DNA of 64,000 bases. It comes from Polytrichum commune (lineage: Eukaryota > Streptophyta > Polytrichopsida > Polytrichales > Polytrichaceae). The stretch is taken from contig OX485805.1 in the NCBI GenBank assembly GCA_950295325.1, positions 36,877,501 through 36,941,500 of the forward strand. Direction: 5' to 3'. The translations under genes and the position numbers were made by a program. The notes beneath the pieces were generated by a model that saw only the letters and a list, made by a program, of their open reading frames with translations, made no database searches and had not been told where the DNA came from. Within the stretch, counting starts at the first letter, position 1, and each line of letters opens with the position of its first letter. Positions 14,377 to 55,902 of the stretch are shown here, in pieces.

Positions 14377-14377
14377 C

Positions 14378-22126: not shown

Positions 22127-22130
22127 CGTC

Positions 22131-29259: not shown

Positions 29260-29472
29260 ATGTACGGTATGGAGACACCAAGTGAGACCTCTTATAGTAG
29301 CGATACGGAATACACAAGTGATAGTTCAAGTGGTAGTATAGAGTCAACGGCACGGACTCCATTTAGGAGAGGGATATCCTTAAGGGCTTGTGTAGCTAAA
29401 GCGGCCGGATGGACGTTAGAAGCAAACAAAGACAAAATAGCACCCGAGCATAAGGAGGTTAAAATAACATAG
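29260..29472 (+). other. Small 70-codon open frame inside the LTR
   Basis: The frame begins MYGMETPSETSYSSDTEY and continues with a serine-rich and then basic segment (TPFRRGISLRACVAKAAGW). It is identical in both LTRs, but that follows from LTR identity and says nothing about selection. No homolog is recognised and it may be fortuitous. The other copy is at 38634-38846. Confidence 0.25.
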
Positions 29473-29675
29473 TTAACTTGTGCATTCTCCACATACGTAT
29501 TGAAATCGTACATTGAGTTGTTAAAAGTGAAATTCCAGTTAAATCCAATACCACTTGAAGGGTGAACCTTGCACTATGGACTCATCCAAGTCCAAATCCA
29601 ACACCGCGGAGGAATGTGAGCCCAAACCCACTACTCGGACTACGGACGCTTAAGGGTGGGGGGTTTGGCCTCACA

Positions 29676-36500: not shown

Positions 36501-36824
36501 CAATCCTTACGAAATCGACTAACCGATTTGGAAGCACTTGACGAAGGGAGGAGAATGGCGGCTCAACATATTGAGGCAACCCAAAGAAGGAGAAATATTA
36601 CTTTCGACAAACGACATAAGAGAAGGGCCCTAACACCGGGAATGATGGTCATGATTCAAGACGCACGAAAGCTTGAATTTCCGGCGAAATTCAATGCGGT
36701 ATGGTTAGGACCTTACCTTGTCTATGAGGTCTTTCCTAATAATTCAATTCAATTGGAAACGTTGAATGGTGAGCTCTTTCCTACCCGTACATCGGGAAGT
36801 AGATGTAAGGAGTACCGAGCTTGA
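30585..36824 (+). CDS. gag-pol: Gag-Pol polyprotein of element II
   Basis: A 2079-residue frame starting MQGRTRSQKPSL, with no stop or frameshift. Domains by approximate residue: Gag core 150-320; CCHC zinc knuckle at 431 (CVQCGQPGHTRQFC) and a second Cys-rich finger near 517 (CSNCGGSHPSDTC); aspartic protease at 850 (VLVDGGSSLNIL); reverse transcriptase 1230-1430 with VCVDYRKLN at 1273 and the catalytic FVDD at 1372 (F in place of the usual Y); RNase H from 1520 (CDAS, TTERE, VDHMAIKYL); integrase with an HHCC finger near 1729 and the D, D, E triad near 1798, 1859 and 1894. The polyprotein makes virus-like particles, copies the element RNA and integrates the DNA. Gag and Pol share one frame, so their ratio must be set after translation. 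Probably functional. Confidence 0.96.
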   Translation: MQGRTRSQKPSLIVGLEKSTRKRRSSKISDRLEQDNVRIESCLNVEPRTRSILDTLELGAQLEEEITPSKLSGETSSENYTLREEFPVEVDRGLLNSSPVTMAEERGMDPPPIPPIPPIPPIPPIDPLVRPRGLPIVVPQNLAAMDMPSHLPKFYGTKDEDPSRHMERYIERLASFLITDPGYWLVWFPTTLEGEAYEWYRDHAEGHFRGWEQLQREFLNEFRPEVGQSTALRALSSLKQGREEEISAYIRRFDLVCTRFVGTMLNDDTLKQFFIQGFFKSGTIRGVLERNPLTLADAKRAARDIENLDKDHERLWRREDELIPQFIPIRPRVVAVEPAKYENQIPYAIVDTGPRPLAVREPAPLLALPAPRTDPHLEEVERRLGASQLGFQEAMIKQMQSLTDQMSLMIRSQQPGPPPPVESGRHSSGLWCVQCGQPGHTRQFCRSGQNRDQRGNGNPPQQNQRGQAPPHYGNGSNRGPQPRGQGGQNLEKKEFYPFCGRWHAQGQCWSEGQEFNCSNCGGSHPSDTCRQPDKIINVPYPVANPQQQARDNMRGARPQGVPANELRPPNLYYDHSNARQTFHPPAGLQTTTGYIPIQNRQGVPPNGSNGRQAPPTDPGPSNSQDVRFMDGVLEATCDDMLPLPTRIGEEQSQWPPHTNAITYELVKGKGVVEEAPALAVTTRARRGDAPLEVGIGEQGNYSSDEEINLSELDRVARRATKDVERENIILQDRERTNAVHDLDNSDVGEWEGPGVPVDEFDVVGNSKVERSTGYDLWADLSTLKADITFGQLLEISPTARKTLKEGMPVHKRMRKVKAKIAARIQSQGGRDVKAIEIEVVIVDKVVPNVLVDGGSSLNILPEDTMKKLGLGLTGPSPLVINMANQSSTTPLGMIKDCRMTTGGEEYLVTFHVIKMHSNKDTFPILLGRPWLRMANAMVNWGGPKPSITYGPEGNRVIVSIGSLEGWMEKEMYLPLEKEIDDLNENEIGKALVGVVHPEGQRVVIDSGSGSLGPNFYNYGDNGDYAQWLREYPESEVDVMVTFHQVGLGSEFPSVSLGEGSLLEPCEVLTEEEWVSGGLTPWVDDVEEGEVSLIHVDGTQEEDVIIESSKLEEPLHFKTTSTGIVVGQDVKDYPNVPSDWYRNKEEQAHVSEADWRYVDVKLKNGKTRQMKMGSKLGEKEVREYSNLVDEFSDTFAWSYDELKGIPREMVEHRIPLIPGARPIRQKERRMNPQLQLLVKAELERLLKAGFIKPVEITDWVSPMVLVKKKNGKLRVCVDYRKLNSCTQKDHFPLPFITLLLEEVGGHSRYTFMDGYAGYNQISIALQDIHKTAFTTPWGTFVWVVMPFGLCNAPATFQRLVMYIFTDLLFKSMTVFVDDFSTQSNVDDHLHCVREALVRCRKMRLALNPDKTFLGVNKGVLLGYVVSEKGREPDPDKIAAISDLATPTNSKGISKLLGHVGWYRELIPNFSKIAVPITHLLKKDVKFEWTDACQKAFEELRDRLSTYPVLIPPNWGKPFHVYCDASNVAIGSALCQATGEKEKDQPIAYASKQLTPAERNYSTTERECLAMVFSVKKFRHYLMCNPVVFFVDHMAIKYLINKAELSGRLARWVLLLEEFDYTVEYKPGRMHLQADHLSRLSEEIGKNPVNDMLVDDSLFVVTSTPEWYAGIVEFLTTHKLPKEWTKEERRKVRVNSRQFVVVGHRLFRRGSDGILRRCVSKTEVEAILIACHDSACGGHFSGQLTGQKILRAGYFWPTLFKDAHDYVRKCDACQRYARNDLRMEMPLHVSLPLIPFEKWGIDYVGEVHLQSSKGMKYIVVATEYLTKWAEAKAVKTDTAEHAATFMYENIISRFGVPKILVSDRGTHFLNDLIREMTEKFKIDHRKTTPYHPQTNGQTERVNGILVSILRKTVIDSKRDWDTKLTAALWAYRTTYKVTTRATPFSLVYGLEATLPIEYEVESLRVAVSTRLTESQSLRNRLTDLEALDEGRRMAAQHIEATQRRRNITFDKRHKRRALTPGMMVMIQDARKLEFPAKFNAVWLGPYLVYEVFPNNSIQLETLNGELFPTRTSGSRCKEYRA

Positions 36825-36885
36825 CTAGGCAACTTACCCTTGGAGCAAGAGATGTTTGGATTCATCCCCCGATGGTCGCCAATTA
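36825..36885 (+). other. Short 3' region of element II before the 3' LTR
   Basis: Only 61 bp separate the gag-pol stop from the 3' LTR. A purine-rich GGAGCAAGAGATG at about 36842 could serve as polypurine tract, but the bases next to the LTR (CGCCAATTA) are not purine-rich, so the assignment is uncertain. Confidence 0.4.
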
Positions 36886-39049
36886 TGTGAGCCCAAAAGG
36901 GTGCCCACATTTAGTCTTAGACCCTTGAAACGTTAGTTGATGCACTTTGAAGTAGCATGTTACTTCACAAAAATATAAAAAGAGTGAAATGTTAGTCTTA
37001 GAAGTACCATGTTGTAAGAGGCTAGGATGTGAGTTGTTATTGTGTTTTTACCTTCGGAAGGATTTGAGTGAATGAGGATAGGTAAGGAGAACTTGGATTG
37101 AGTAGTTAGTGAGTAGGCTAGTACAAATGGATGGAGACAACCAAAGTGACTCAAGAGGCAAGTGCATTCGAATTGGGATGAATGGAGGATCACATGGAGC
37201 GCACAAGTGGACCACCTCATCATGGCCACTTAATGGGGAAGGCCCAAGGAAGAATGCAAGGTGGAGGATAAGCAAATTCTCAAAGCACCAATCAAATCAC
37301 GAGTTAAGCATCGTGGTTTGAATTAAGTGGTGAGCGACGATTTGGGAAAGTAAGGGGAGAAAGTTATGGCGGCGGAAAGCGAAGGAGGCTAAGTTTGGGT
37401 TGAAGCATCCCAAGTTTGGTAAAGTGTGGTAGGTAGAAAGCCAAGGCTAGTTAAATGTTCGAATTAGGATCCTTGTTGATCATTTGAGGGAGGAAGGCTT
37501 AGAAGATAGGATTGGCGCCTACTAAGTAGGAGGAAATCTCAAGGGCTTATCGTGAGCCTTGAGGGTGCTCACCCCCTCAAGCTTACTATATAATCCCTCA
37601 TTCTTCCCTCACTCATCCTCTCTTTCCTTTGTGCTCCAAGGCACCCCACGAGTTATAAGTGTGGGTGTGGGAAGCCATATTGGAGCACATGTGTGTGCTT
37701 AGTTTTTAGTTTGAGAGCCAAGGCTTGTTAGCCTTGAAGAGGGCTTGACCTCTTGGTAGAATTAGTGTTGACGTGAAGGATTTTAAAGTTAATTCATGAT
37801 TCCAATTTGTGGTACTTTAAGTTCATGTTTTGAGTACACGTGGTTGCAAGTTCCATGTTTAAGAGTTGAGCACTTGATGTTGTGATGAGTGCAAAAATAT
37901 ACTTGTGTGGATTAGTTAGTCTTAGTGAAGTTAGGAAATTCTCTCTCCCCCTCTCCTCTCTAGGATTTTAGGATTTTAGGATTAGAGAAGAATTGTGTGA
38001 TTAGAAAGGGGTTGTTAGTAGAATTAGGGAAATTAGGTAGGAAGATTAGTTAAGGGCTTGAATAATTAGTGAGGTAGTTGGGGATTACAACTACAAAGTT
38101 GTGGGTTCATGAAGGAGCTGGGTTTATGAAGGAGCTGGGTTTGTTTAGTTAGAAAGTAAAGAGCTGGGTTTATGAAGGAGCTGGGTTTGTCTAGTTAGAA
38201 AGTAAAGAGCTGGGTTTATGAAGGACCTGAGTTTGTTTAGTTAGAAGCTAAGGAGCTGGGTTCATGAAGGAGCTGGGTTCATGAAGGAGCTGGGTTTATG
38301 AAGGAGCTAGGTTTATGTAATTAGAAAGTAAAGAGATGGGTTCATGAAGGAGCTTAGTAGATAGCCTACCTAATTAGCTCATAGACAAGTAGTTAGTTAC
38401 ATTATGCTAGTTAGTGTTATGGTGGCTTTCACAAGTAAATGTATTTGAGATTGACTATAGAGAATAGTGTTTTTTTTAACACTTGCATCCTCTCTTTAAA
38501 AATAAACCACGTGCACAAATTAATGGAGAATGTGGAGCACTCTCGCGATGGCAAGACAAAGGAAGCAAAGACCAAAGGTGCGAGGGAGAGATTGACATAA
38601 GTCACATAAGTATTTCTTAATACTTAAAGGCTTATGTACGGTATGGAGACACCAAGTGAGACCTCTTATAGTAGCGATACGGAATACACAAGTGATAGTT
38701 CAAGTGGTAGTATAGAGTCAACGGCACGGACTCCATTTAGGAGAGGGATATCCTTAAGGGCTTGTGTAGCTAAAGCGGCCGGATGGACGTTAGAAGCAAA
38801 CAAAGACAAAATAGCACCCGAGCATAAGGAGGTTAAAATAACATAGTTAACTTGTGCATTCTCCACATACGTATTGAAATCGTACATTGAGTTGTTAAAA
38901 GTGAAATTCCAGTTAAATCCAATACCACTTGAAGGGTGAACCTTGCACTATGGACTCATCCAAGTCCAAATCCAATACCGCGGAGGAATGTGAGCCCAAA
39001 CCCACTACTCGGACTACGGACGCTTAAGGGTGGGGGGTTTGGCCTCACA
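36886..39049 (+). repeat. 3' LTR of element II
   Basis: 2164 bp, the same length as the 5' LTR, with a handful of single-base differences (for example near 37169, 37496 and 37817). Confidence 0.95.
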
Positions 39050-39054
39050 CCTTT
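39050..39054 (+). repeat. Target-site duplication of element II, right copy (CCTTT)
   Basis: Matches 27507-27511. Confidence 0.93.
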
Positions 39055-39540
39055 GCCTGGCCTAATGTGTGCTTGGAGCTCGTGTTGGATTTGGATATGT
39101 CGTCGCTCATGGTCATGCAAGCTAACCCCCTCAATTGTTACATTCCTCAACGGCCACCTTCGCAACGAGAACCTATGAGTTGGATTCACTTCGGAATGTA
39201 CGAGTGATTCCAATATAACAACTCCAACGTCCTCGGTGCCAAAGGGGTTTTCATCAATGCAATCTTGTGGATGTGTGTTACGACAAATACCCTCCGCCAC
39301 AGCAACTCCATTGTCATTAACAAGTACCACATCCAAATTCACCCATGAAGCTCGTGAAAGCCCCGCACATTCCACAATGGGGCAAAAAGGTGCAGATGTC
39401 GAAGGACTCCCCAAGTCATCTTCATCTGCACTGTCATCAAAACTATCCTCCCCGACAATGTCTAGCTCGTCCCTAGACGTAGATTGGGTGTTGTCCATGT
39501 CGTCAGAGAAGGAATCCCCTCTTCCACCAACTCCCTCCAT
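39050..39540 (-). pseudogene. N-terminal part of the DUF7869-like transposase gene
   Basis: The minus strand reads MEGVGGRGDSFSDDMD from 39540, through an acidic low-complexity stretch, then LSRASWVNLDVVLVNDNGV, NPTHRFSLRRWPLRNVTIEG and HELQAHIRPGK, and stops at the LTR boundary. A possible splice acceptor (GTGTATAG) lies just before the start codon. Length arithmetic supports the join: 491 bases here plus 953 bases at 27506-26554 leave remainder 1, which matches the phase-1 intron, and the full coding length with exon 2 is 2943 bases, exactly 981 codons. Confidence 0.75.
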
Positions 39541-39727
39541 TGCGCCTATACACATGCACATGAAACCTCAACACACATGGAAAGAATGTAAGGGTCCAAA
39601 AGAATCAAATATCGGAAAATGCAAGATACCATGATCAATGGGGACACCGAGTTCCAACACAACTACAATGTAAACTCCCAACACTATGCGCAAGTCCAAA
39701 ACAAGTTCCAGAAAATATTTTGGTGGG

Positions 39728-40062
39728 GGTTTGGGTCGACCGGCCCAAACCTCATAAGGGTCAGACTGAACCCCTAACACACTGGGGTAGGGGTTTGGGT
39801 CGGTCGATCCAAACCTGATAAGGGTCAAAAAAACCCTAACACACTGGGGTAGGAATTTGGGTCGACCGACCCAAACCTCACAAGGGTACATCCACCCACA
39901 CCAGGTAGGGGTTTGGGTCGGTCGACCCAAACCTGATAAGGGTCAGAAAAAACCCTAACACACTGGGGTAGGGGTTTGGGTCGACCGACTCAAACCTGTT
40001 AAGGGTCAGACTTAAACCCTAACACACTAGTGGACAGGTTTGGGTCGGTCGACCCAAACCTG
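39728..40062. repeat. Array of six 20-bp palindromes in 56-64-bp units
   Basis: The palindrome TTTGGGTCG-NN-CGACCCAAA starts at 39730, 39794, 39856, 39912, 39975 and 40039. The central pairs are AC, GT, AC, GT, AC, GT, and three copies have one arm mismatch. Spacers carry CTGATAAGGGTCAGA and ACACACTGGGGTAGG. The array lies upstream of the DUF7869-like gene start, possibly in its leader or a leader intron. Confidence 0.93.
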
Positions 40063-43000
40063 ATTAGGGTCAGACTTAAAACCCGCCAACACTAGTGGAA
40101 AGGTGAAGGTTCGCCCAAGTACACCACAAAATCCGGCGTATAATGCGGCGGATATTGCGTGGTGTGTTGAATTTGAGCTCATTGCAAAGTGCACGGTGGG
40201 CTTGCATGCTGTGGATAGGTGCTCATGAACTTGCATGCTATGGATAAGTGCTCATGAACGGCAGCATGCATGAACCTTGAAGTACAGCTCCTACTAAGAG
40301 TTCTCTCTACGACTTCGACAGTGGGAGAAGAGAAAAAAAGACCGACTTTTGGGGGGTGCGTGTGAACCCTTTGAGTGGTCCACCACTCTGCGGGATTACT
40401 TTTAGTTAGAATGTTAGCATTAAAAGTTAGAATTGATAGGGAATTTAGGAAAAATTAGTTCATTTAGCATTTAGCCTAGAAGAAGGAAGGTCAAAATGAA
40501 ACTAAGTAGTGCTAGAAGATAGCAAAGTAGAAAAAATGTGCTAGCTAGTAAAAACAACTAGCTAAGCAAATATTAGTAGACGCTAGTTATTAAGCAAATG
40601 TTAGTAGATGCTAGCTAAGCAAGTGTTAGTTTATTAGTTAGTGTGAGGCACACAAGACTATTGGAGGTGTTTTACGTAAGAAGATAAAATCGGCGTGAAG
40701 AATTTTGAAGACAAAAAAGAAAGAGAGCAAGGGGGATACTTGCCCACTTGCCCCCTTGCCAACTCGATGGCGGAAAAATTAGAAAGATTTCTAAAGGTTT
40801 TTTGTCGGAGCCACCTCGGCGAGAGGGTGGCAACCTCAACCGGGAAAACCCCCGAGCCAAAACTTCGGGAAAGGGTTTGAAAAATGGATCCGGTGGAGGA
40901 GGGGTCCAACCCTTTTGTGAGAGGGTTTAAAAACCCCTCCTTCCACCTTGTAGCTCTCTCTCTTTCTCTAGTTTTTGGGCGAAGCCCTGCTTCAATGTAA
41001 TTAGGAAAAAATCCTTTAGCATGTATTCTCAATGGTCTAAAAGAAAGGCTTGAGAACCTTCTCTACTCTCTCTCTCCTAGTTAGGTTGTGTGTTTATTAA
41101 CACACCAACAAAATTATTCCTTCTTTTGTAGAGGTAGGTTGGATGGTAGAGTTTTGAGTAGAGGCATTATAGACCTCATCTGCCAATGCCCTGAAGGCTT
41201 AGTTCAAAAGCTAGAACAAGATACTTATCATTTTTCTCTTAGAGAGATTTCATATAGCTATCCATAGCCGTTTCCCATTTGTGATTTGGTTGAGATGACA
41301 ATTAGTTATGGATTTTCAAAGATGGAGTAGAAAAACTGGGTGGTCTTGTGGGTAGCGGCTGCTGGATCAGACCTGCGAGCCCAATAGGAATTTTAATTCC
41401 AAGAAATTATATTTTTCCCAAGTAGAACTTTTGTGTAGCTTTCCAAAATGGCTTAGAACATTTGATTTGAGCATGATTTGAATTAGATATGAATTGTGCA
41501 AGATGGGACACATAGTTTGAGAACTTTTGGTTGACTGCTGCATTACAGAGGACCTGCTGGGTTCACTTCGGCTTACCTTTCTAATCACATATTTTTATCA
41601 AATACATCTTTTTAATATCTCTCCAGGGTCATATAGAACGTTTGATTTGACTAAGATTTGAATTAGATATGAATTGTTGAAGGCGAGATACATAGTTTAA
41701 GGCTTCTTGATTGACTGCTGTGTTACAAGGAGTCCGCTGAATTTCTATTAGCTTAACCTGCTGATGTCATAATTTTTTCTAATTAGAGCTTGTTCATAGC
41801 TTTCCAATGGTATAAGGAAAGCCTAGATCCAAGTAGTAAGGAATGTGCTATGAATTCTTGAAGTTAGAAGGTAGATAGGTGGGTTGGAAGGGTCGGTTGA
41901 ATCGACCTCACACTTCCAACCCTCATAACTTTTGCATTTCTTATCCGATTAGAGTGATTTTTAGATCATTGGAAAGATAATTTGGTGCACTAAGTATAAA
42001 AATTATGCTTAGGATTAAATTACAGGGCAGAATAACACTTTATATTTTAATTGTTAACTAAGGTACGCTTACTACCAAACTAGTTACAAAGAAGGAGGCA
42101 AGGTCGACGCTCGGAAAGTGGAGCAAGGAAGGAGGTAGCGGCTCGGCCTACATCAAGCCCAAATCAACCGAGGAAAATTGAGGTAAATTAACTAACCTTA
42201 AGCCTTCCATTTAGAATTGGAGGGAGCACGGCTAAGGTACGCATATCTAAACCCACTCACCTATCTCGTAAGGTCAAGTGGCTTGCCACTTGACCGCCAA
42301 GGGAGTACCCAATTCCATTGTTTTCGGGGCCCTTGGTATGTTTTGTGGTAGTAGCTTCATTTATTAGCAAGTTTCGTGTGTGGTAAGTCGGATTAATCAC
42401 CGACACGACCACTCTGAATGTTGTTGGTGGAAAGGTGGAGTTAATGACCCGCGAATCCACTATTATGTTGTTGGCCCCATAGATTGGGAGTAATGGCCCC
42501 AATTTATGAAGATTGCGCAACAGGTTGAACCTACAGGTCGCCCGACACCCTGGTCCCATTGAGTTGCATTTCGTGGTCTATCCAGTGTAAACACATTTAA
42601 CAATCAAAACATACCAAATAAATCGTAAACCCTTGTTGGCAAGAGACCCGAGGTAAGGGGTGATGCCTAATATGTTAATGTAGTAAGTTAGGACGTGCAA
42701 ACAAAAGTAAGTAATTAAGAAGGAATTTGTGTGAAAGGTGGGACTTAGGCCAAGTTCTCCCGCTTAGAAAACTAAATAGAACTAAATAAAGAAATATGAA
42801 GAATTGAATGGTCCATCAAATTGTCGTTATTCCGTTCGTTGAGTTAGGGTGGTATGAGTCACACCCGGTTGGGTGTATCAGAACCATCCCAATTCACAAA
42901 TTAGGATTGCCTTGGTTTTAAGGCTGGTGCGTCTGCGCGTAGAATAGGTTGTATGTTAAGGTTAGAACTAGATATGAAATTGGTTAGTGGAGTTTAAAGC

Positions 43001-43640
43001 CACACTAGTAAAAAACTAAGGCCTAACCTCCGGAGGTACTACGACGCATATTTAATCTCCCTTAAAAATCTGACTACTCACGTTATACACCTATCATCCG
43101 GGTTCGGCTTGGGCGCCTGCAAATGCAGGCCACCTTCACCGAAGGGCTTGTGTGATACTTTTAGGCTCCCTCGAAAGGGGGTGGCCCAAAAGTACCACAG
43201 TGCGCCCCTTTATACTATCCACCTCCGCTTCCCAGACTTAGTCATTGGATGCCTTCCCCGCCTTCTTCTCTTGCAGAGGTTATTTCAAACCTCCTGACAG
43301 AATTCCCCGTTTCCTGTTTATAGTAGAAAAATGCGCATCTATCAATGCCCCTCTGATACCCCAGCCGTCATATGACTTAGTCTATGATATTTAATCTATT
43401 TTTTTTTTTTTTGTGTGGATATGACATACGCCATTGGGAGGAAGGGTGGCGGCCACATTAATTTTTTCAAATATCATCAAGGTATATTTTAACCAATATG
43501 TAGACCCAAACACAACTCCATTCAATGCTTTCAAGTGTAAACCTATTTAGGTGGGGTTTGGGCCATTTGGAGGCTGCAATTATGAAAGAGTTTCCAAGGC
43601 TTGAGGCCATTGTCATGATGAATAGAATTATTTATTTGTC
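40063..43640. other. Non-coding region, possibly a decayed LTR-retroelement end and leader
   Basis: No coding frame is convincing. A TATA-like GGGTTTAAAAACCC at 40924, followed by a CT-rich stretch, looks like an LTR promoter. 42090-42250 resembles the leader of element II in layout (GGAGGGAGCACGGCTAAGGTACGC against GGAAGGAGCGCGGCGAAGGTACGT). This suggests a relic of a related element, but no LTR pair or TSD could be found. A T-run of about 14 lies near 43400. Confidence 0.35.
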
Positions 43641-43645
43641 TCCCC

Positions 43646-43663
43646 TAAACCCTAAACCCTAGA
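43646..43663 (+). repeat. Short interstitial telomere-type repeat
   Basis: CCCTAAACCCTAAACCCT, the plant telomere sequence in C-rich orientation, about 2.5 units. Confidence 0.85.
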
Positions 43664-43822
43664 ACCTTGCTCTATTATCTCGCATGCGAGAGTGGCAATG
43701 ACGAACGTATGTGGACGTTGTTAAGGGGATACTAACTACCAATGTCCATTTTTAGTTCAATATTTTAATGTTACTTGAATCCATCCTCAAATTCACTTCA
43801 AGTTTACTAATGTGTGAGAGCA

Positions 43823-44325
43823 AAACATCCAAGATTGGACCCTAAACCCTTATAACATCCACAACATGAAATACGCATTGACTAAATTCAAAACCAATTA
43901 GGATATCATGTTTAAACGTCCCATATAACATATTAACATGATCAAGATTGTATTTACTATGACCTTCCGATTAGACTCTTCTTCATATTATGCAAACAAT
44001 ATCTGTTATATCTTCCTCCATTATCTAATACACGTGGAGAGAACAATGAATAACAACATGATGTTGTGCTTCTCCGATTTACTTTTACATCACATTCCAT
44101 ATATTAAATACATCATGAACGATGGTTTATTAGCGACTAATATGTGATTCCCTAAAGTGGGCGAAACATCCAAAGTTGGACCCCTAGCCCCTATTAACAT
44201 CCACAATATTTCATGTTATTTGAATAAACACAAGACCAATCAATATATCGCGTTTAAACGTCTCAAATAACAAATTAACATAATCAAGATCGTCTTCACT
44301 ATAACCTTCCTACAAGACTCTTCTC
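43823..44325 (+). repeat. Diverged direct duplication (~160 bp, ~340 bp apart)
   Basis: 43823-43985 and 44165-44325 share ordered strings such as AAACATCCAA, TTGGACCC, AACATCCACAA, GTTTAAACGTC, ATTAACAT and ACTATRACCTTCC. The copies have many substitutions, so the duplication is old. Confidence 0.75.
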
Positions 44326-44379
44326 ACGAGTAAGACAATGTTATACATTGACATTGGATAGATTAATATGTTATAACCC

Positions 44380-44412
44380 TATCCCCTAAACCCTAAACCC
44401 TAAACCCTAAAC
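44380..44412 (+). repeat. Interstitial telomere-type repeat, four units
   Basis: CCCTA followed by TCCCCTAAA and three further CCCTAAA units. Together with 43646 and single copies at 43840 this gives a small cluster of telomere-like motifs in AT-rich DNA. Confidence 0.85.
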
Positions 44413-45650
44413 ACCAAAATTTAGTAGTGGTTCACTGATGCCCCCATATACAAACAACATCTATTTTAAACGTTCTTATTAAGTGTATCAAACACTAACT
44501 ATCATATTGAGTGTAATTATCATATTCATTGTAGTGACACTACAACACTTTCATTGACTAGATAAAACTAAATTGGATATATAGAGTTTGATACACTAAA
44601 TATGAATGCATACACTAATTACCAATATCCCTATGACAATATGTAAGATTATATCTAAGGGGTTTTACTCTACTTGGAGTCAAACATTGTGGTATAATTC
44701 AAACAATATATTGTCAAAAGAGGTGCCAATATTATAAAACCTCATATACTAAAAGTCACTAAATATAATAGTTAATGCAATTATTTAGACCCTCACATGA
44801 GGACTTATATTTTGAAAACAAGGAATTGATGCCATGACAAAGTTGAATAATTTGGCCAACTTTCAATTTGCGCTAATCAAAAGAACATATGTTGTTTGTA
44901 ATGTGTGCACACAACATTGCTCCATCCTCAAGCATGCAAGTGTGACATTAACCTACGTATGTGGAAGTCATTAATGGAACCATAAACCACAAATGACATA
45001 ATTTTGTGAGTTCATTCTTTCGTGAATTAGGTTGTTGTGATGACAATATACATTTGTATTGAAAACTACAAGCACCAAGGCCCTGTCATTTGACGTGTGT
45101 GCCATTCATTTATGGTTTGTGGTGTTTAGAGTTTAGGATTTAGGCATCATCGAACTTCAAACTGAATGTTTAAATGGCTTCATATGATATGTGAAGTCCA
45201 TGGGGTTGAAGTAGATACATTTGTTATCATTTTGTTTCTCCCATGTACTTCAAATTTGAGTTTCTAAGTACATATGTTAATGTTCACTCTAATGCTACTT
45301 GTTAGGGTATCCATTGTAGTCTAGAGCTTTGTCCTCTACCAACAACCATCATAGAAATTAGAATACATAACCCAATACCCTTAACCATGTGAACGGTTAC
45401 CATATTTATATTATTGCACCGTGTAATTGCCTTTGAAGATTGCAATATAATTATGAATTACTCCTCTTAGATTTTGTAACACTCTCATATGATTCCATAC
45501 GACTACATTATTGAAATACCAAAACAAATAATGGCTACGATGTTATCAATTCCAATGGGCGATCATTCAATTCAGCACCATTAAAATCAGAGTTGGCGAT
45601 GGTGTAAATATTGTGCAACACCTTAGTCTATGTAGCTTTTTGAATGTTTT
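44413..45650. other. AT-rich non-coding stretch
   Basis: No gene, element end or tandem repeat could be supported. Base composition changes sharply to GC-rich near 45660. Confidence 0.5.
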
Positions 45651-45756
45651 TGAATTGCCGGTAATGAATACCGGGGCCGGGCGGCCAAGAGAGGCACCGA
45701 CCCTCCTATGTCCCGCCCCAAGAGGCAAGGACAATGCCGAAGGCAATGTCCATAGG

Positions 45757-45852
45757 GTGCCAGGTGTCGACACCAGAAGCCTCGCGGGCAACCACCTCCA
45801 CCAAGGAGGTTTGGACACCTGGCAGGGTTTTGGCCCGTGAGGCTTCTGGGCC
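45757..45852. repeat. Crossed inverted repeats in GC-rich DNA
   Basis: CCAGGTGTC (45759) pairs with GACACCTGG (45815), and CCAGAAGCCTCGCGGGC (45774) pairs with GCCCGTGAGGCTTCTGG (45832). The order is arm 1, arm 2, arm 1', arm 2', so the two stems cross as in a pseudoknot. A third small hairpin (ACCTCC...GGAGGT) sits in the middle. Confidence 0.75.
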
Positions 45853-45889
45853 GTTGATGGGCCCGAGCAATCGCATGGCCAGGATTGTC

Positions 45890-46515
45890 TGAAGGGGAAC
45901 CCCTTCGGCTCTCTCCTTCTCTCCCCTCCTCTTTCTTTCTTTCTTTCTTTCTCGCTTTCCTCTCCCTCCGCGCGAAGCGCCGCCGCTTTCCATAGCGACT
46001 CGCCAAGCGATTGTCCGTTTCTCTTTTCGCATACCTTCTTGCGCTCATAGCTTTTCGCTTGGACGCGCCGCTTTCCTCATTCTCTTTCTCTTCACTTCTT
46101 CCTTCTCATTCTTCTTCTCCATCTCTCTGGTGTTTTTCCTCCTCTTCTCGGCTGATATGCTTACTCTCTCTTCTTGGTCCAGAGTGCACGCATTGAGTGA
46201 GTTCAGAGCGGATTAGTTGAGTGTCTTTCTTGTTGTAGAGTGGTAGCAGTGAATGACATCAGATTGTTGTTGTTGTTGTGGAGTGATTTGAGGTTGTTAT
46301 TAGAAGTGAGCACATTCGGGTGTGATAGAAAGGTAGATTTCTTTCAAATTAGGCCAGAATCAGGGTGTTTGTAAGAGGGTTTCAGAGTGCTTGTGAGATT
46401 CATAGTGTTTTTTAGGTGTTTCTGAGTGTTGATTTTTAGTGATATCATAGAGTTTCTGGGTTCTGGTTCTAAGAATCAGCTTGTAAGAGCAGCTTACAAG
46501 AGTTTCAAACACAAG
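45890..46515 (+). promoter_or_regulatory. Promoter and 5' leader of the palindrome-rich gene
   Basis: A pyrimidine-rich tract with (CTTT)n at about 45930-45955, typical of plant promoters and leaders, is followed by a leader ending at AACACAAG|GTATAT (46516). The first intron would run to TTACAG|ATGG at 47564. No clear TATA box was found. Confidence 0.45.
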
Positions 46516-46694
46516 GTATATCATTTCACTCTACACAATTTGCTTCAGTTCTTTTACGATCATGTTTCATACAATGCATTGTATATGATGTTTAAACATT
46601 AAACATGCCTCTGGAAACTGAGTAGTTTCGGGAGGCGACCCAAACCCCAATTTAAAATGTAATGAAACACTTAAAATCAGCTTGAAAATTGATT

Positions 46695-47186
46695 AAATGT
46701 TTGGGTCGATCGACCCAAACCCCAAAGCCTCATGTTTGGGTCGAGCGACCCAAACATTGCAGCCTCATGTTTGGGTCGCTCGACCCAAATCCTAATTTTA
46801 AATATAAAAAAACACTTGAAACCAGATTGAGAATTAATAAAATGTTTGGGTCGAGCGACCCAAATCACAGAGCCTCATGTTTGGGTCGATCGACCCAAAC
46901 CCCAGAGCCTCATGTTTGGGTCGTTCGACCCAAACCCCAGAGCCTCATGTTTGGGTCGATCGACCCAAACCCCAGAGCCTCATGTTTGGGTCGTTCGACC
47001 CAAACCCCAGAGCCTCATGTCCAGGTCGCTCGACCCAAACCCCAGAGCCTCATGTCCGGGTCACTCGACCCAAACCCCAATTTCAAATCTACTGAAACAC
47101 TTGAAATCAACTTTAAAATTAATGAAATGTTTGGGTCGCTCGACCCAAACACTGTAGCCTCATGTTTGGGTTGCTCGACCCAAATC
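46695..47186. repeat. 35-bp palindrome array with variable central dinucleotide
   Basis: Palindromes start at 46700, 46735, 46770, 46845, 46880, 46915, 46950, 46985, 47020, 47055, 47130 and 47165. The step is exactly 35 bp, except for two 75-bp steps where a ~40-bp AT-rich insert (AACACTTGAAAYCA...) is added. Spacers read CCCCAGAGCCTCATG with few changes. The central pairs in order are AT, AG, CT, AG, AT, TT, AT, TT, CT, CT, CT, CT; the copies at 47020 and 47055 have mismatches in the left arm. Confidence 0.95.
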
Positions 47187-47425
47187 AAACATGTTGATGA
47201 AACTATGAACCCAAACTAAATGATGCCCGCATTAAAAGAACCCAAATATAAAGACTGGTCCTCATTACTCCAATCAAAAATTTATATTTAATGATGGCCA
47301 TAATTGAAATTGATGGACTCATGTATATACAGATACATTATACCAATACAACCAAACTCTCTAAAGAGGAACCATCATAGGTCTATTTCAACATTTAAAG
47401 AATACGAGCCACCAAGTGGTCAAGG

Positions 47426-47536
47426 TTTCGGTCGATCGACCCAAACCTTGAATTCGGGATGGTCAATAAAATACATTTGTTCCATTCCATCAAATGTTAA
47501 ATGCATTGTCGACTACTTTAGGTCGATCGACCGAAA
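47426..47536. repeat. Two further palindromes in the leader intron
   Basis: TTTCGGTCG-AT-CGACCCAAA at 47426-47445 and TTTAGGTCG-AT-CGACCGAAA at 47517-47536. Both centres are AT. In the first one base of the left arm differs; in the second one base differs in each arm. Confidence 0.85.
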
Positions 47537-48899
47537 CTAATAGTTTCCATTTTTGGACTTACAGATGGCCCCAAAGAAGAGACCTGGAGAAAGGTTTTTT
47601 ATGCTCGCGCCAGACGTACTATGGCAGGAGTATGAAACTCCCCAGGACGACTCATACGTGCCCAAGGATGGGCTCGTTCTTGCGTGGTCAGTTCAGGTTG
47701 TCAAGGGCTCCCAGTTCAAGCTCATGTTCGTGGTAAAAGTAGGGACCCACGAGAACTACACTTGGACAACGTTGACAGGATGGGAGGTTGCGTCCGTCCA
47801 AGCCCTCGGGGATTACGTGGACGTCATTCTCTAGAACTCCGCTGTGCAGAACGCCCACATGTTCATGCACCAGTTCTCCGAGTCATTCGACACCATATAC
47901 GCCAAGGAGTCATGCGTGGAGCCTGAAACAATTAAACCGGAGACAATTTTCATAGATGGCAATGTAACCAACACGAAGGTTGCAAGTAGGTTTACAAAAT
48001 TGAAACAGGCTATCACGGTCCTCAACAAGGCGCTGCAAAGTAAAGCCAAAACGCAGCAGCCTGTGAGGCGTAAGGCAACGGCGGAAGAAGGCGCAGGGTC
48101 GTCCAGACCCCAAACTGTGAGGAAGCCGCGTCCGGTCCCTGCAGACTCCAGACGGACTAGCACTACAGGAACGCCGGCTGACAGCGAGACGCCCACACCG
48201 TCAGGAAGCCGGCAGACGACCCCGTCGAAGAGGGCGAGAGAGTCCTCCGTCATGACCACCGAGCCAATTTCCCCGGAGCTGCGGATGCCGAAACCTGGCC
48301 AAGAGGTGGATGCAGGCGAGATACAGAAAATCAATGATAACTTCAAGACGAAGTGCCTGCATTGCTTCTTCATGGGCAGGGACTTCAAGTTCGAGGTGAA
48401 CATTGCACAGTGCCACCTTGCGCCACCTGAGAAGTGTGTCCGAGCCAAGGAGGACGCCTACGTCGACTGGATGGTCGCTCAGATCTTGGGAGGGCAATTC
48501 AAATACGACAGGCAGACAATTGTTGTCATGCCCCAAGGGCTGAAGAGAATGCCGACGCCTGAAATGTGGCCGACAATATGCAAAGACGACTTCTGGCTGA
48601 TTGACGGCCAGCACAGTGTGGAGGCCTCTAAAAAAATTCAGCTGATGACTGAGTGGGACGACCCCAATAACCAAAAGGAGAAGCTAAAGGTGTGGAAGGC
48701 ATTGGTGGTTTGGTCTGACAACGAGACCGTACTAACCGACATCTCACGCTTCTTCAACATAGGGAACAAGAAGAGGGCGTACCAGGCATCCTGGATTTGG
48801 AACATCATGGCCTCGAGGGAGGTGTGGGAGTTTTACGGTAGGCCTCCCAAGGAAAGGGAGAATGCTAAAGACAAGAACCCAAAATGGGAGGTGAGTATG

Positions 48900-48976
48900 T
48901 TTAGGTCGATCGACCCAAACTCTTGCATTGTTTACTTTTTCTCGTCAGGTTTATAGTTTGGGTCGATCGACCCAAA
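48900..48976. repeat. Two palindromes in intron 48891-49023
   Basis: TTTAGGTCG-AT-CGACCCAAA at 48900-48919, nine bases after the donor GTGAGTATG, and a perfect copy with AT centre at 48957-48976. Confidence 0.92.
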
Positions 48977-50389
48977 GCTTGCATTCGCAGTTTTCTAACG
49001 TGTGTTATTTACTTCATGTGCAGGACTTCAAATACCAGATGATCAACAAATTCTCCTCGATTGAAAACGCTTCCCACAAGCAGAAGAAGTACAACGAGCT
49101 AAGAGGAGAAATTTATTTGATCACAGCGTCTGACTCCGTGTGGGGGAAATGGAAGAGTGTTTTCGAGAAACACGAGACGGGGGACCTCATGGATCCCGAC
49201 ACCGGCATGCTCTTCAACCAGACTGCGCGCTTCAAGCAAATGAAGCCTCTGGTGAAGGAGTTCTTCAGAGCTCTTCAAGGTCTCTCGGAGACAGAGATGG
49301 GAAAGGCGGCATCCCACATCCTCCACGTGCAGCCGACTGCGAAGAGATGCTGGATCCACCCGAAAATCGTCTTCATCAAGCCCAAAATCTTCGTCCCTTC
49401 ATGCTACACCATGAAGGAATGGACATAGAATAGGAAAAAGAAGACGACCATCGTCCAAGAGCTGCACAAGCTGGTGCCGGACAAGAAGCTCATAGTGGAT
49501 GGAGAGGTCGACGAGGCGCACTGGAGGGCATTCAAAGCCGACTACAAGTTCACCAGTGCGTCCATGGCGGCACTCATCAGGGAGGCGGGAGACGATTTCC
49601 TGAAGTCCAAGCTTGTGAAGGGGGGGAGGAACCGGGCGCTTCCCGAACACTCCACGCGTGCCTTCTCCAACTTTATAAAGGAGAAGAAGATCGTCAGCTT
49701 CGAGGGCGACGCCTACTTCAACTTGGTCACCCTCGAGCCTCTCAAGATCCAAGGCTGGCCGGGCTCTGATGCCAGGAAGGCTATCAGGACAAAAGCCGGG
49801 GACTGCTTCCCCTTCGGAATGATAGACTTCAGGAACATCCCTGGAGCCTCATTCGAGGGGACAATGAGCACCCTGTTCTACGAGCCGTTCTTCACGAAGT
49901 TTGTGGATTACGGCAGCCCCAAATTCAGGGAGGTCGACGTCTGGCTGTGGATTGTCGAGGACAGGAGGGCAGAGCATGTGTACGAGATCGTGTGGAAATT
50001 GCAGCCAGAGTACTCCGTCTCAAAATCTCACTACGTTGCTGCACCGGCGGAGGGGGCGTACAACACGCTGAAAGACAAGAAGACGAAGATCGTCAACGTG
50101 CTGTGCTTGTACTTCGTGTACAAAGCTGAGCTGTTTAAGGTGCCAAACCATCCCATAGCTAGGATGGAGAAGCTCTTCCAAGTCCAAGAAGGGTTGGGCT
50201 CCAGCAGAAGCTTGTACGACGAGGCGAAGTACGCTAACTACCCCGCGGATGAGCTGCGCATGGAGTTCTACCTGCGGATGATGAGGACCCTCACGAAGAG
50301 AGGGGACTGCATCTTCAACGTCTTCGGGGGCTCCAAACCGGTTTTTACAGCCATGGTAAGCAAATAACCTGAAGGAACTATATGGACGG

Positions 50390-50516
50390 TTTGGGTCGTG
50401 CGACCCAAACTAGGGGCACGGTCTGTTTGGATCGAGCGACCCAAACTAGGGCATGCATTGTTTGGGTCGAGCGACCCAAACTATGGGCATACCTAGTTTG
50501 GGTCGCTCGACCCAAA
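50390..50516. repeat. Four palindromes in intron 50356-50601
   Basis: Start at 50390, 50426, 50461 and 50497 (steps 36, 35, 36). Centres are TG, AG, AG and CT, and one copy has a single mismatch. Spacers contain CTAGGGGCACGG or CTATGGGCATACC and differ from the 46.7-kb spacers, yet the step is almost the same. Confidence 0.93.
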
Positions 50517-51725
50517 CTAACTATTCTTATTTTGTTTTGGATGTCATTTTCCATTATTTGTTCATTTGGTGATACTAATAGTATTGATTTTGATTGTGTA
50601 GATGTCTGGGTTGAACATCTACTCCTATGTGGAGGATGCCAATTTTCAATTCTACAAGACCCAGAAGGCGATGGCCAAGAGAATGGACATCCTCGACTGG
50701 ATACCCGGATCCTACGTTGAAGAGATCGTCGAGGGGGGCGAGAATCCTTTGGATATGGCGAGGCGAATCAACACGGGTGAATTCGCCATACGGGCCCCCG
50801 TTCAATTGCCAGAGCCGCTCATCGGGTTGCATCCGGGCAATCCGTCTATGGGAGCAGGTGGCGAGGTTGGGGAGGAGGGGGAGGAAGAGGAGGAGGAGGA
50901 GGAGGAAGCAGAGAAAGTGGAGGGGGAGGTGGAGGAAGGGGCAACAGGATTCACTCAAGAATCCGAGGCCCCTCAGCGGAAAAAGGCCATGCGGGCTGCC
51001 ACGCCGCAGAGCAAGCTAGTGCCCGTCCTAACGGTGGCCGATGCGAAGGACATGTATTCGAGGGATGCGACGGCCACCTTCAGGGAGCGTCGAATGTTGA
51101 AGGGCAAGAAGTTGTACGGGGACTATGCGGTGGAAGAGACGATCGCCATAAGCTCCGAAGACGAGGACGACATGGAGCTCGCGAAGAGGCTAAGGTCGGA
51201 TCCTGCCTCCCCCGGAGCGTTCGCCGGGAATGTGAAGGTGAAACCCAAGGTCCTCACCGTGGAGGAGGCCAACGCGAAGATGCTCCGGGACGAGGAGCAA
51301 CGCGTCCGATTGCAAAAGGCCGCCGCCGAGGAACCCTCGGTCCGCAACGAAGTCGCGGAGTTGAGGGCTCTCCTGTTGGAGCAGGAGCGGCAAAGGCCAT
51401 GGCCCAACCTCCGTCCCAAGCGGACCTGATCACGCAAGTGATCCAGGGCATGCTGGCGCAGGGATTGGTGATGGCTCCCCCGAGTTCATTCCCTCACTTG
51501 CCCGCAGGCTTTCCTCCACAGGATATCGGCCCGCGGCCCACGCCGCAGCAGTCCTTCAGCTTCGGGCATTTGCTGCAGCCTCACGCCCGCCCTTACGCGC
51601 CCGTCCAACAGGTGGACGACCCCAACCTTTGGCGCGTCCCCGGATCTTCCAGCTCGTTGGCACCCCCGCCGCTTCGGCCTGCCATCCTCTTGCCCCCACA
51701 CCACCAGCGGGACGACCCCCACATG

Positions 51726-51814
51726 TTTGGGTCGTCCGACCCAAACAGTGCCGACGTTGTAGCGTCCCAGAGCGGCCCTCGCCAAGCAGCAGGGTTTGGG
51801 TCGGCCGACCCAAA
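51726..51814. repeat. Two palindromes inside coding exon 4
   Basis: Perfect copies at 51726-51745 (centre TC) and 51795-51814 (centre GC). They are read in frame as FGSSDPN and FGSADPN and cause no frame break. Confidence 0.95.
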
Positions 51815-52076
51815 CCCCATCCTCGACCAGACCCCGGTGGACGAGCCCATGTTAGATGTTGAAGGCCCGCAAGGGCCTGGTGATACCTCTACTCCTAACC
51901 CAGTCGATGAACCAATGCATGATGCGCATGCGGAGGTTGGGTTGGGACAAAGGCCTGACAGTCAGCCTTTGCAGGAGCAGGTTGCGGCTGACGTCGTCGT
52001 CGGAGGCGGCGGTGACAGAGGTGGGGCAGCGCACGCGATGCCGGCATCAACGTCGTCAAGGCACGACCAAGGCGAG

Positions 52077-52588
52077 GTAATGCACTGACCCCACTCAGTT
52101 TGGGTCGGTCGACCCAAACTCCATGGGTCTTTGTCTTCTTGCTTTGGTCGTGTCCCCTAACTACCCTAAATTCACGCACACGTCGCCCCCCCGGCACTCG
52201 CGCCCTTCGCCACTTCCCCCCGACCATTCATTCGTCCACATACCCTCGACTTGCGACGAAGTCTTCATCACGGCGGCCCGTCTCTTCAATTTTTTCTAGA
52301 TGTAGAAGTAGGCTAGTTTGAACGCATCGTTCAACGCGGCTCCCCCCAATCAAGATGTACATAGAGCATTGTATACAATATAATCGCCATTTTTTACTCC
52401 TATATACTTGTATCTTGTGTTTGAATGTATGTTGTATGCTCTTGCCTATCTTGTATCCCTTGTTGCACCCCCTCCAAAATGAATAAAATGGTTTTGTGTT
52501 TGCACCGAGAACACTCGTTTCTTTAATGCTTCGTTTGGACATAGCATGACATAAGTCGCCCACCGTTTTCTCTTGATCGTATCTGCAG
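52077..52588 (+). other. Presumed intron or intergenic gap between the two gene halves
   Basis: Starts GAG|GTAATG and ends GTATCTGCAG. An AATAAA at 52492 and a 3'-UTR-like composition leave open the alternative that the first gene ends here and a second gene begins downstream. Phase 0 on both sides favours one gene. Confidence 0.45.
52099..52118. repeat. Palindrome just after the exon 4 donor
   Basis: Perfect TTTGGGTCG-GT-CGACCCAAA, 22 bases into the presumed intron 52077-52588. Confidence 0.95.
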
Positions 52589-54349
52589 GGCTCGGAGCAT
52601 AGCGTAGCGGCTCCCTGACGCTCTTCTCCAAGGAGCGGAGAGGGCAGCGCGGCGGCGCCCCCGATTTTACCCGCCCCGCCCCCGCGGCCGAAGAAACGAT
52701 TCCTGGTGTTAGACCTGAACGGGGTCCTCGTCCAATGCGTTCATTGCCTTAGGACCCCCACGGTGCCCTTTTGCAAGCCCGAGGACGCGAATTACGACGG
52801 GCCACCCACGTTCATAAAGAGCAAGCTAGTTCACCTCCGCCCGTGGCTTCGGACCTTCCTCCAAATCGCCCAACAACGATGGTGGGTGGTCGTGTGGAAC
52901 TCCATGAAGGCCGAGAACACCAATGCCGTCGTGGAGTTCATCTTCAAGGGCATCGAGCCCCCCTGCATGGTCCTAGCACAGGAAGCCTGTAGAATATTGT
53001 ACACACAGGACGGCAAAGTCGTCAAAAAACCAAATAACCCCGCTTCCCCCCAATATCTCAAGGTCTTGAAGCCCATTTTTTGGGACCAGCGACCGTCCTT
53101 GATAGGCGTCCCCTACGACGTCCGCCCCACCCGCGAGAACACGCTCATGGTGGACGACAGCGCCGCAAAGAACATGTTGAACCCGACGGCCAACCTCATA
53201 GTTTGCCCTACGTGGACGGTCGAGAAGGTCCGGGACCGATTTTTGTTAGACCTTGGTAAATACCTCCAGGCGCTCTGCGGAAGCGGACTGCCCGTAAACA
53301 ATTTTGTTAGGAATAATCCCATAGGCGAGAGATACTTGGATCCACGAGACCATTTGTACAGAGAGTTGTTATCTCACGCGAAATTTAACAAGCTCATTTG
53401 AGACACTACGTGTGTTTGTATGTGTATGTATGTATGTATGTGTGTGTGTGTGTGTGTGTGCGCGCGCGCCCGTTCATTTTGTGTAATATATGCTTCATAT
53501 GTATCTTGATTTTCACGCGCTCTATCAAACCCTCCTCCCTTGGGTTTTGTTTCGTTTCTTTTTTTGCGCCAGCGTTTGGAGCCCTCGATTGACATCGTCA
53601 GCGAGTCAGACTTGGGGAGCTTCTTCTACGAGACCGTTTACGACGCCGCGTCAACCATTGACTACTCCAAGGAGCCTCTTGACGCCGGCGTTGTCGATAG
53701 CCCCCCACCCAAGCAAATCTTCCGGCGATCTGCGTCCCCGTCGCCGCTCAAGGGCATAAATCGCAAATGCGTCCGGACATCCCCTCTCGGCCCGGCGGCA
53801 GTATTACACCTCAATGGCGACTGCGGATGGACGCTCGGCCAACGAAGAGTGGAACCCTTCCTATTCCTTTGCGGGACGCATTGCCCCTCCTCGCCAACTC
53901 CGACGGGAACGCCCCCGGTGACAAGGTGAACCCCCCCCCCCAAAACATGGTTAACCGCGCATTACAATCATCCCGCAGTTAAAAAATGAACGCGTGACAC
54001 GTTTGGGTCTTCCTCCCTAAACTAACACGTGTGTTCTTGCATTCACGCGTTGCAGGTTGCTCCCACCCGTAAACCTATGCGGGCTAGTATGTCCGTCGAG
54101 TTGGAGCGTTTCTACTCCATGACCAGAAATGCAAGACAGTCCACTTCATCGTATTCGAATTCTTCATCGTATAATTCGGGCGGCCGACGGAATCCAAAAT
54201 GTGTTATTGATGGTGGTCACCCCAAGAATGGCTATAGTCGCGGGGCGGAGATTTTCAGGAATGTTGAAGCAATGCGAGCAAAAGAAGCCGCAACAAAAGA
54301 AAAAGAGGCAAAAGCAAAAGAGATAGAGGCAGTCTCCGAGGCTAGATAG
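52589..54349 (+). pseudogene. Multi-exon gene, 3' part: FCP1/NIF-like HAD phosphatase region and basic C-terminal exons
   Basis: The exon from 52589 encodes a proline-rich linker, then PKKRFLVLDLNGVLVQCVH. This is a HAD motif I of the FCP1/small CTD phosphatase type (DxDGT, here DLNGV: the first Asp is kept and the second is Asn). It continues with HLRPWLRTFLQIAQQRWWVV and TLMVDDSAAKNMLNP (the third Asp region). The Asn in place of the second catalytic Asp suggests altered or lost phosphatase activity. TGA at 52616 interrupts the linker, and the HAD part stops at 53399. Exons 53573-53925 (353 bp, one base short, frame shifts near 53780) and 54056-54349 (ending GTAG at EAVSEAR) follow with good acceptors, and all are phase 0. 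They are Ser- and Lys-rich with an alanine/glutamate helix at the end. Confidence 0.62.
53408..53470 (+). repeat. (TATG)n(TG)n(CG)n microsatellite
   Basis: A pure TATG/TG run turns into alternating CG at 53460-53468. Alternating purine-pyrimidine DNA of this kind can adopt the Z form. Confidence 0.92.
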
Positions 54350-54479
54350 GCCATAGTAGGCGTAGGGTTTTGGACCATAGGCAACATGATTTTGGGTCGC
54401 ACTATCCAATGGATGTGTGGTGTTAGCATGCTATGCATTTTACGTGCCATACTTTGTATGTTTTTTTTTTTTGCAATAA

Positions 54480-54910
54480 TATAAGTGTCACATGATTTTG
54501 CCTTTAATATGGTCTAAGGTTTGGAGTGCCTTATTGTGTGCATTAATATGAATGTTTTAAGATTTCCCCTTCAATAAGATCTATGGTTTGGAGTGCCCTA
54601 CCTAAACCATATTCATACAAGCTCTCATATTTTGTGTGCATTAATATGAATGTTTTAAGATTTTCCCTTCAATAAGATCTATGGTTTGGATTGCCCTACC
54701 TAAACCATATTCATACAAGCTCTCATATTTTGTGTGCATTAATATGAATGTTTTAAGATTTTCCCTTCAATAAGATCTATGGTTTGGATTGCCCTACCTA
54801 AACCATATTCATACAAGCTCTCATATTTTGTGTGCATTAATATGAATGTTTTAAGATGTCCCCTTCAATTTGGTCTAAGGTTTCGATTGCCCACCCTATA
54901 CCATCACAAA
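54480..54910 (+). repeat. 98-bp tandem repeat, about four units
   Basis: GTGTGCATTAATATGAATG starts at 54536, 54634, 54732 and 54830, each exactly 98 bp apart. Each unit also carries AGATCTATGGTTTGG and ACCTAAACCATATTCATACA. The edge units are diverged. Confidence 0.93.
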
Positions 54911-55902
54911 TATGAGTTATTAATGGGGTTCTTGGTCTAAACACCCGCTTCAAAGTGTTCGCATCTTACAACTTTCACCAATATGTGTTCCATTTATCCT
55001 TGTTCTTATTTCTGTGAATGTCTCAAAATGCCCAAAAAGTCTCAATTTAACGAATATAGTGTTCTAGCTTTGATTGGTATGGCGTTCGGTGAGGATCAAA
55101 GACCTAACATCATAAAGACACATGTTTAAAAGAGATTGGACTACGTCTTCAAATCTTAATACCGAATCTACACTCAATAGTGAACACAATTGGAATGACC
55201 CATGTATTTAGTTAGGAAATCAACACTTGCACTTTTGATAACCATAACTAAAGCAAGGGAGGTCCAATTTTGGATCCGGTTTTTACATAAGATTCAGCAT
55301 GGATTTGGTAATGGAACACATAACATTATTCACATCCATAACAATGTTATGTGGGACTTGTAATATTCTATAGAATATTCCCACATTCAATCTGTTTGTG
55401 GTAAATATTCCGCAAAAAACTGTCAGCCCCACAGAGAATATGAGTACTCTTATGCACAAACTTTGTCGTGTAAATTACTTTGGTAGAAGCTGAAGAACAT
55501 GAGAAAGGAACCAAATAACACCCACATACTTTCCAGCCACTTTCTATCGGAGCCTTGGTGCTTATTATTTTAATGTCATGAGTTGAGTCCTCCATAGTCG
55601 GCACAAGTTGAGATAAGTTAGGCTGGAAACTGAGAAGGGAGGTGGAAGACCACACGTTTACAGACAAGTCTACCCAATGAAAGAGGGGCCAAGCTTCTAG
55701 AAGGAAGGCACATGTCAGGGCATCTCATTTTTATTCCAATAGCGACGTGTGTGGCCCTCCCAAGTCCCTGGTTGAGGCATAAAGCCGGCCAGGAATGGAG
55801 GGCAAACGAATCCGAGTCGTCCTCTTTCTACGCGTAGGATTCAAACCACATTTCCATTTTTTGGAGCGCCCGAACACTTGCCCGACTTGCTGCCCGATTG
55901 TA
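54911..55902. other. Non-coding stretch
   Basis: No gene is seen. Near 55044-55070 the start of the 329-bp dispersed repeat appears inverted (AATTTAACGAATATAGTGTT). Confidence 0.45.

Follow-up and report, generated by a model that had tools for sequence, protein, structure and literature searches.

A 64,000-nt stretch of the genome of the moss Polytrichum commune (contig OX485805.1, positions 36,877,501 to 36,941,500, referred to here as the window) contains a dispersed palindrome, the alpha palindrome, with the arms TTTGGGTCG-NN-CGACCCAAA. A probability of about 0.7 is assigned to the reading that this palindrome is part of a large DNA transposon, TE1, and the likely binding site of a dimeric protein encoded by TE1 itself, for which a ParB fold and a methyltransferase fold are predicted. 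What chiefly points to the element's own protein as the likely binder is a matched change of palindrome and protein in a related lineage, beta. An earlier note on this DNA had described the palindrome; it had not recognised that a single transposon holds all 29 window copies and also encodes the likely binder.

Abundance and structure of the palindrome

At up to three mismatches the window contains 30 matches, 29 of them at 39730–52118, compared with a mean of 0.05 in shuffled sequence; 19 are exact, 26 have at most one mismatch and 27 at most two. This bears out the earlier count of about 29 copies in six clusters between 39.7 and 52.1 kb. The palindrome is confirmed as real by a genome-wide count against a control: 13,499 places in the whole genome (408 Mb) match at up to two mismatches, and the reversed pattern, used as the control, matches one. 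A search of viral contigs gave no match to the alpha palindrome, and 257 Gb of prokaryote genomes gave a single exact match, in a Rikenella metagenome-assembled contig (L047:5809-5828).

The motif had been given as 20 bp, and is corrected here to 22 bp by a G that precedes it in 93 % and a C that trails it in 89 % of 257 context-unique sites. Core length was determined in 40 stretches comprising 324,533 bases, with seven overlapping loci excluded. At up to two mismatches, 387 sites had a core of 2 bp and nine a core of 1 bp, and none was found at lengths 0 or 3–8. The nine dinucleotide forms of the core are as first described, but the core is not free: pyrimidine–purine (YR) cores occur in one of the 387 sampled sites. 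Among 233 context-unique sites (up to two mismatches) there are 108 purine–pyrimidine, 66 purine–purine, 58 pyrimidine–pyrimidine and one YR core; many palindrome sites are copies of each other, so core counts are not independent events. Genome-wide, 38 exact sites have a YR core, every one of them CA/TG, and none has TA or CG.

Placement within TE1

Window copies are found upstream of both divergent genes, in introns, twice in an exon and once directly after it (Table 1), which agrees with the arrays, introns and exon noted earlier. In an uninterrupted TE1 copy, B4 (16,573 bp), 39 sites were found at up to two mismatches: 17 in array I, 12 in array II together with the region ahead of the start codon, four in intron 1, three in intron 2, two in exon 3 and one just past exon 3. 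Site order in the window copy matches this. In B4, 37 of the 39 lie outside coding stretches (set by hand, 8,797 bases). In B4, array I lies upstream of the putative transposase frame and starts 110 bp from it; on the side of the ParB-methyltransferase-fold gene, the start codon follows 48 bp after the beginning of the last site. No palindrome sites were present in eight loci of 4.5 kb that surround the putative transposase gene.

Degenerate relatives of the palindrome were seen in the subterminal parts of TE1, TTTGGATTGCCCTACCTAAA within 98-bp repeats (54534–54904) and TTTGGGTAGAGCACTCCAAA near the left end (24573–24592).

Constraint on the arms and turnover of the arrays

The repeat arrays allow changes in the arms to be compared with changes in the adjoining DNA. 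Six near-identical copies of array I provided 86 repeat units of 78 bp, units of 79 bp being excluded. Changes were found at 1 of 1548 arm positions, 34 of 172 core positions and 283 of 4816 spacer positions. The units were located by their palindromes, and the site lists are free of double-length gaps, so that decayed units were not missed. The arms may owe some of their uniformity to gene conversion between units of an array, yet conversion would not spare the spacers, and the pattern indicates that the arms are under constraint. In the window copy, the repeat unit of array I is about 64 bp long; its spacer could not be aligned visually with the 78-bp unit found in the B copies, yet the palindrome is identical. 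A more diverged element, D1, which lies beside element B1, retains six of the seven window sites in the part compared; between the two, 106 of 108 arm positions are identical, as are 3 of 12 core positions and 382 of 600 positions in the 60-nt flanks, some of which overlap one another or adjacent sites.

Exact half-sites rarely occur singly, 712 of 727 lying within palindromes. Arm changes are predominantly one-sided (132 single-arm changes), and where both arms changed at the same place complementarity was kept once and broken 13 times. The rarity of compensatory changes suggests that the half-sites are read separately by a protein dimer rather than through base pairing. Where copy number differs, entire repeat units have been gained or lost; their length is 36 bp for intron 2, 57 bp for intron 1 and 78 bp for array I.

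Matched change of palindrome and protein

A genome search with P0123, a distant relative, revealed the beta lineage; of 1085 candidates, 88 matches were scored. The exon-1 proteins of beta and of the window share 38 % identity, and the beta palindrome is TTTACGAACG-NN-CGTTCGTAAA, likewise with a 2-bp core; YR cores, nearly absent from alpha, are present in beta. In the 5.5-kb beta element L048 the alpha palindrome is absent, also when four mismatches are allowed. The beta palindrome occurs there 13 times (up to three mismatches), always with a core of 2 bp: eight copies lie ahead of the start codon, two in intron 1 directly past the splice donor, as in alpha, and three past the exon-2 donor, in a putative intron 2 whose acceptor is assumed. 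Three further beta elements, drawn from different groups of the match list, were covered over approximately 750–800 bases around the start codon and 250 at intron 1; these parts contain seven, nine and eight beta copies upstream and two each in intron 1, and no alpha copies. Conversely, seven alpha loci (L010–L016) have 8–23 alpha sites each and no beta site, and no beta sites were found within elements W and B1–B6. Palindrome and protein thus changed together, as a site and its binder would be expected to do, while architecture and placement were kept.

These results favour one of the two possibilities in the earlier note, a binding site for a dimeric protein, which is supported by the fixed 2-bp spacing, the conserved arms within diverged flanks, the lack of compensatory changes and the matched palindrome swap. 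As for a role in recombination, no recombinase turned up among the TE1 genes searched.

The predicted ParB-methyltransferase-fold protein

The right half of TE1 encodes, on the plus strand, a three-exon gene divergent from the putative transposase gene. Its product is predicted to join a ParB-fold domain to a domain resembling DNA amino-methyltransferases. The assignments come from fold comparison alone, and the matches to the ParB-fold part include KorB, a ParB-fold repressor. In P0001, helices at 168–178 and 182–192, outside every fold match, are candidates for a helix-turn-helix that would read the palindrome. A search of viral contigs for relatives of the exon-1 protein found none.

A dimer of this protein would bind the palindromes with one subunit on each arm. 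By analogy with VANC, the protein of VANDAL transposons of Arabidopsis, the bound protein might then mark the promoters and introns of its own element and keep host silencing off; alternatively, it might regulate the element's own genes. Either outcome is less certain than the binding itself. A broader proposal, tentative and somewhat short of an even chance, is that of a self-recognition code, in which a protein with the ParB-methyltransferase fold, probably bacterial by descent, and the palindrome that goes with it diverged in step into pairs, each shielding its own copies from silencing, and in which an unrelated transposon, TE2, acquired one of the codes.

Several observations weigh against the binding of the palindrome by the TE1 protein. 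The link between protein and motif is drawn from only two lineages. Searches of Pfam, NCBIfam and PDB sequences with the exon proteins returned no match backing either fold, and the best Foldseek E values for the two were 2.5e-3 and 4.1e-2, neither search reaching E <= 0.001. The CTP motif of ParB proteins is GERR, and DPPY/DPPW is the catalytic motif of methyltransferases. At the site of the former, likewise placed by eye, the displayed exon-1 relatives have (D/N)GQHS (DGQHS in six of seven, NGQHS in one); where DPPY would be expected, also a position judged by eye, there is DFR (D272 F273 R274, at least 90 % in alignment A2). Because both motifs are replaced by others, CTP clamping and methylation by the TE1 protein are doubtful. 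Since the usual catalytic motif seems to have given way to a different, conserved one, the methyltransferase fold may serve mainly in DNA recognition.

TE2 also weighs on this side. The alpha palindrome occurs in arrays of 32-bp units in TE2 loci (L001, L003, L006, L008 and L043–L046, assigned by common DNA and reading frames), so the motif is not tied to the ParB-methyltransferase-fold protein alone. In the single pair of putative transposase frames compared, those of TE2 and TE1 have no similarity. All eight clusters whose flanks were read in the first 3.5 Mb of contig C1 are TE2-like, and the TE1 share of the 13,499 places cannot be derived from these clusters, which are the first sites of the genome listing and a small, non-random sample. 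Three further C1 clusters (at about 0.62, 1.18 and 2.12 Mb) were assigned to TE1 by site spacing alone, the first of them also by gene match. The putative transposase frame of TE2, found by eye, has no Pfam match. A second TE2 gene contains a nearly invariant DGNHR motif; BLASTP of this gene against the ParB-fold gene gave nothing, and hhalign aligned 17 columns (E 0.12), in which the DGNHR motif is the only common part. TE2 may have obtained the code by exchange, or may rely on the protein of TE1.

Alternative explanations

The main rival explanation is that the palindromes are operators, through which the ParB-methyltransferase-fold protein regulates both divergent genes without any effect on silencing. 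The short distances in B4 from the sites to the two genes, 110 and 48 bp, and the presence of KorB among the fold matches are consistent with this. However, sites also occur in the introns and in an exon, and 39 copies per element are many for an operator, and we regard this explanation as rather unlikely.

That the palindromes are sites for a host transcription or chromatin factor, exploited by several transposon types, would account for the same palindrome in two types whose compared transposase frames lack similarity. It would not predict that a related lineage exchanged the palindrome at corresponding places, and the clusters with flanks read fell in those two transposon types; this explanation is improbable. 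Binding of the transposase for excision is more improbable again: degenerate relatives of the palindrome do occur near both ends of TE1 (24573; 54534–54904), but in B4 the outermost 3.8 kb on the left and 2.7 kb on the right are free of sites (up to two mismatches).

The other possibility raised in the earlier note, a small mobile palindrome resembling a miniature inverted-repeat transposable element or a REPIN and inserted many times, fits the high copy number and dispersal but has very little chance of being correct, given that sites occupy corresponding positions in diverged elements, that copy differences are of whole units including the spacer, and that no cluster was found outside a transposon among the loci read (few, and not chosen at random).

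Two other candidates were rejected. An RNA or cruciform hairpin is at odds with the one complementary against 13 non-complementary double arm changes. A plain satellite is a poor fit to copies at corresponding places and to whole-unit changes in copy number.

Comparison with known systems

The sites parS and NBS and the KorB operators are palindromic targets. The TE1 protein resembles bacterial ParB, Noc and KorB in its predicted ParB fold and palindromic target, and differs from bacterial ParB in that the CTP-binding GERR motif is not seen.

The comparisons that follow refer to parts of the published texts. Accessory proteins with ParB-like and DNA-methyltransferase domains are known in algal transposons, for example Sola1-1_Ec32 of Ectocarpus, and according to a published proposal they can bind the element that encodes them and modify it (PMC12477816). 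Like Sola1-1_Ec32, TE1 is a large DNA transposon in which one gene, divergent from that of the transposase, combines a ParB-like domain with an N4C/N6A methyltransferase domain, in TE1 by predicted fold; TE1 differs from that account in belonging to a plant (moss) genome, in having two lineages with their own palindromes and in a catalytic motif that seems altered. No target sequence for transposon ParB-methyltransferase proteins was found in the literature, the available parts of PMC12477816 included. That paper was the only one found on such genes in transposons, and a 2011 chapter and a 2025 Bostrychia genome paper cited in it lie outside this coverage. The same pair of domains occurs in prokaryotic fusions, which are frequent in phages (PMC12704722) and for which nicking and NTP binding have been reported (PMC12704722; PMC5512222). 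The kind of protein is therefore already known; palindromic targets matched to it did not turn up in the literature searched.

VANC proteins recognise short motifs, repeated in tandem within introns and upstream of the element's genes, and remove silencing from their own family (PMC5735166; PMC10398659). The layout of TE1 is a close match to this: it shares with VANDAL elements noncoding motif arrays with fast turnover, related elements with their own motifs and a binder encoded by the element, which in TE1 is predicted. Unlike the palindrome of 20–22 bp described here, the VANC21 motif has nine bases (YAGTATTAY), and the term 'palindrom' is absent from the available text of PMC5735166. VANDALs are also of MuDR type (PMC12730594), whereas the TE1 protein is ParB-methyltransferase-like by predicted fold.

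Constrained palindromes in the noncoding regions of the element would provide candidate targets for ParB-methyltransferase proteins. The natural palindrome swap between two protein lineages in one genome makes the proposed self-recognition by transposons directly testable, and an anti-silencing strategy of the VANDAL type may have arisen more than once, with a different protein.

TE1 and other features of the window

The inverted ends of TE1 are 28 bp long and are flanked in the window by the target site duplication CTAG (24377–24380 and 55064–55067). Among five copies with both ends, four have a 4-bp duplication (CTAG, CATT, AAAT and CTAA) and one, B3, has none. The best 85 of 1867 candidate copies are 96–100 % identical, which suggests that TE1 moved recently. 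A minus-strand gene in the left half of B4 matches DUF7869 (E 1.1e-42); by this domain and its position it is a putative transposase gene. The Sola1 superfamily has a 4-bp target site duplication, and TE1 is alike in this respect; in its putative transposase, DUF7869 was the only domain found.

Table 1. Features of TE1 in the window
Feature	Position	Strand	Remarks
DNA transposon TE1 (alpha lineage)	24381..55063		Ends common to other copies; inverted termini; split by a nested long terminal repeat (LTR) retrotransposon
Left terminal inverted repeat, AACACTATATTCGTTAAATTGAGAGTTT	24381..24408	+	By copy comparison
Putative transposase gene, part	25709..27499	-	Cut by retrotransposon; other part 38956-39567
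Nested Gypsy-type LTR retrotransposon	27500..39049	+	gag, protease, reverse transcriptase, RNase H, integrase; limits approximate
Palindrome array I, 6 copies	39730..40058		Upstream of putative transposase gene
Palindrome array II, 12 copies	46700..47184		Upstream of ParB-methyltransferase-fold gene
Two palindromes (47426-47445, 47517-47536)	47426..47536		Directly ahead of predicted start codon
Exon 1	47565..48890	+	Predicted N-terminal domain, linker and ParB/Srx-fold domain; in-frame TAG at 47832 in window copy
Intron 1	48891..49023	+	Palindromes at 48900-48919 and 48957-48976
Exon 2	49024..50355	+	Helical region and predicted beta-class/MT-A70-like methyltransferase fold; in-frame TAG at 49426 in window copy
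Intron 2	50356..50601	+	Four palindromes (50390-50516)
Exon 3 region	50602..52085	+	Low-complexity C-terminal part
Two palindromes in exon 3 region	51726-51745, 51795-51814		In exon
Palindrome	52099..52118		Directly after exon 3 reading frame
NLI-interacting-factor-like phosphatase (NIF) reading frame	52619..53401	+	Pfam NIF, 3.3e-14
Right terminal inverted repeat	55036..55063	-	By copy comparison

The NIF phosphatase frame of TE1 has a ratio of nonsynonymous to synonymous substitution rates (dN/dS) of approximately 0.2 relative to D1. The Gypsy-type retrotransposon, which sits inside the putative transposase gene, has a long open polyprotein frame and is not part of the palindrome system. The left end of a second TE1 copy begins at 63672 and continues past the end of the window (63672–64000).

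Elsewhere in the genome, the B1 element (loci L017–L019 and L032–L034 represent B1 and B6) adjoins a reversed relative that is approximately 75 % identical, and beta palindromes occur in the DNA around B1 and B6, outside the alpha elements. These two observations suggest that the transposons are nested within each other.

A TE2-like element in the window (12432–22131) has a gene homologous to the DGNHR gene of TE2. It contains eight copies of a GGTTTCGG-NN-CCGAAACC type, also with a 2-bp core, and three copies of TTGAAGCC-NN-GGCTTCAA; they form tandem arrays that lie between the genes of the element and next to them. Two further features of the window suggest a plant genome: AACCCTA repeats at 44375, and reading frames with TIR and NB-ARC domains at 61600–63632 that look like a plant disease-resistance gene.

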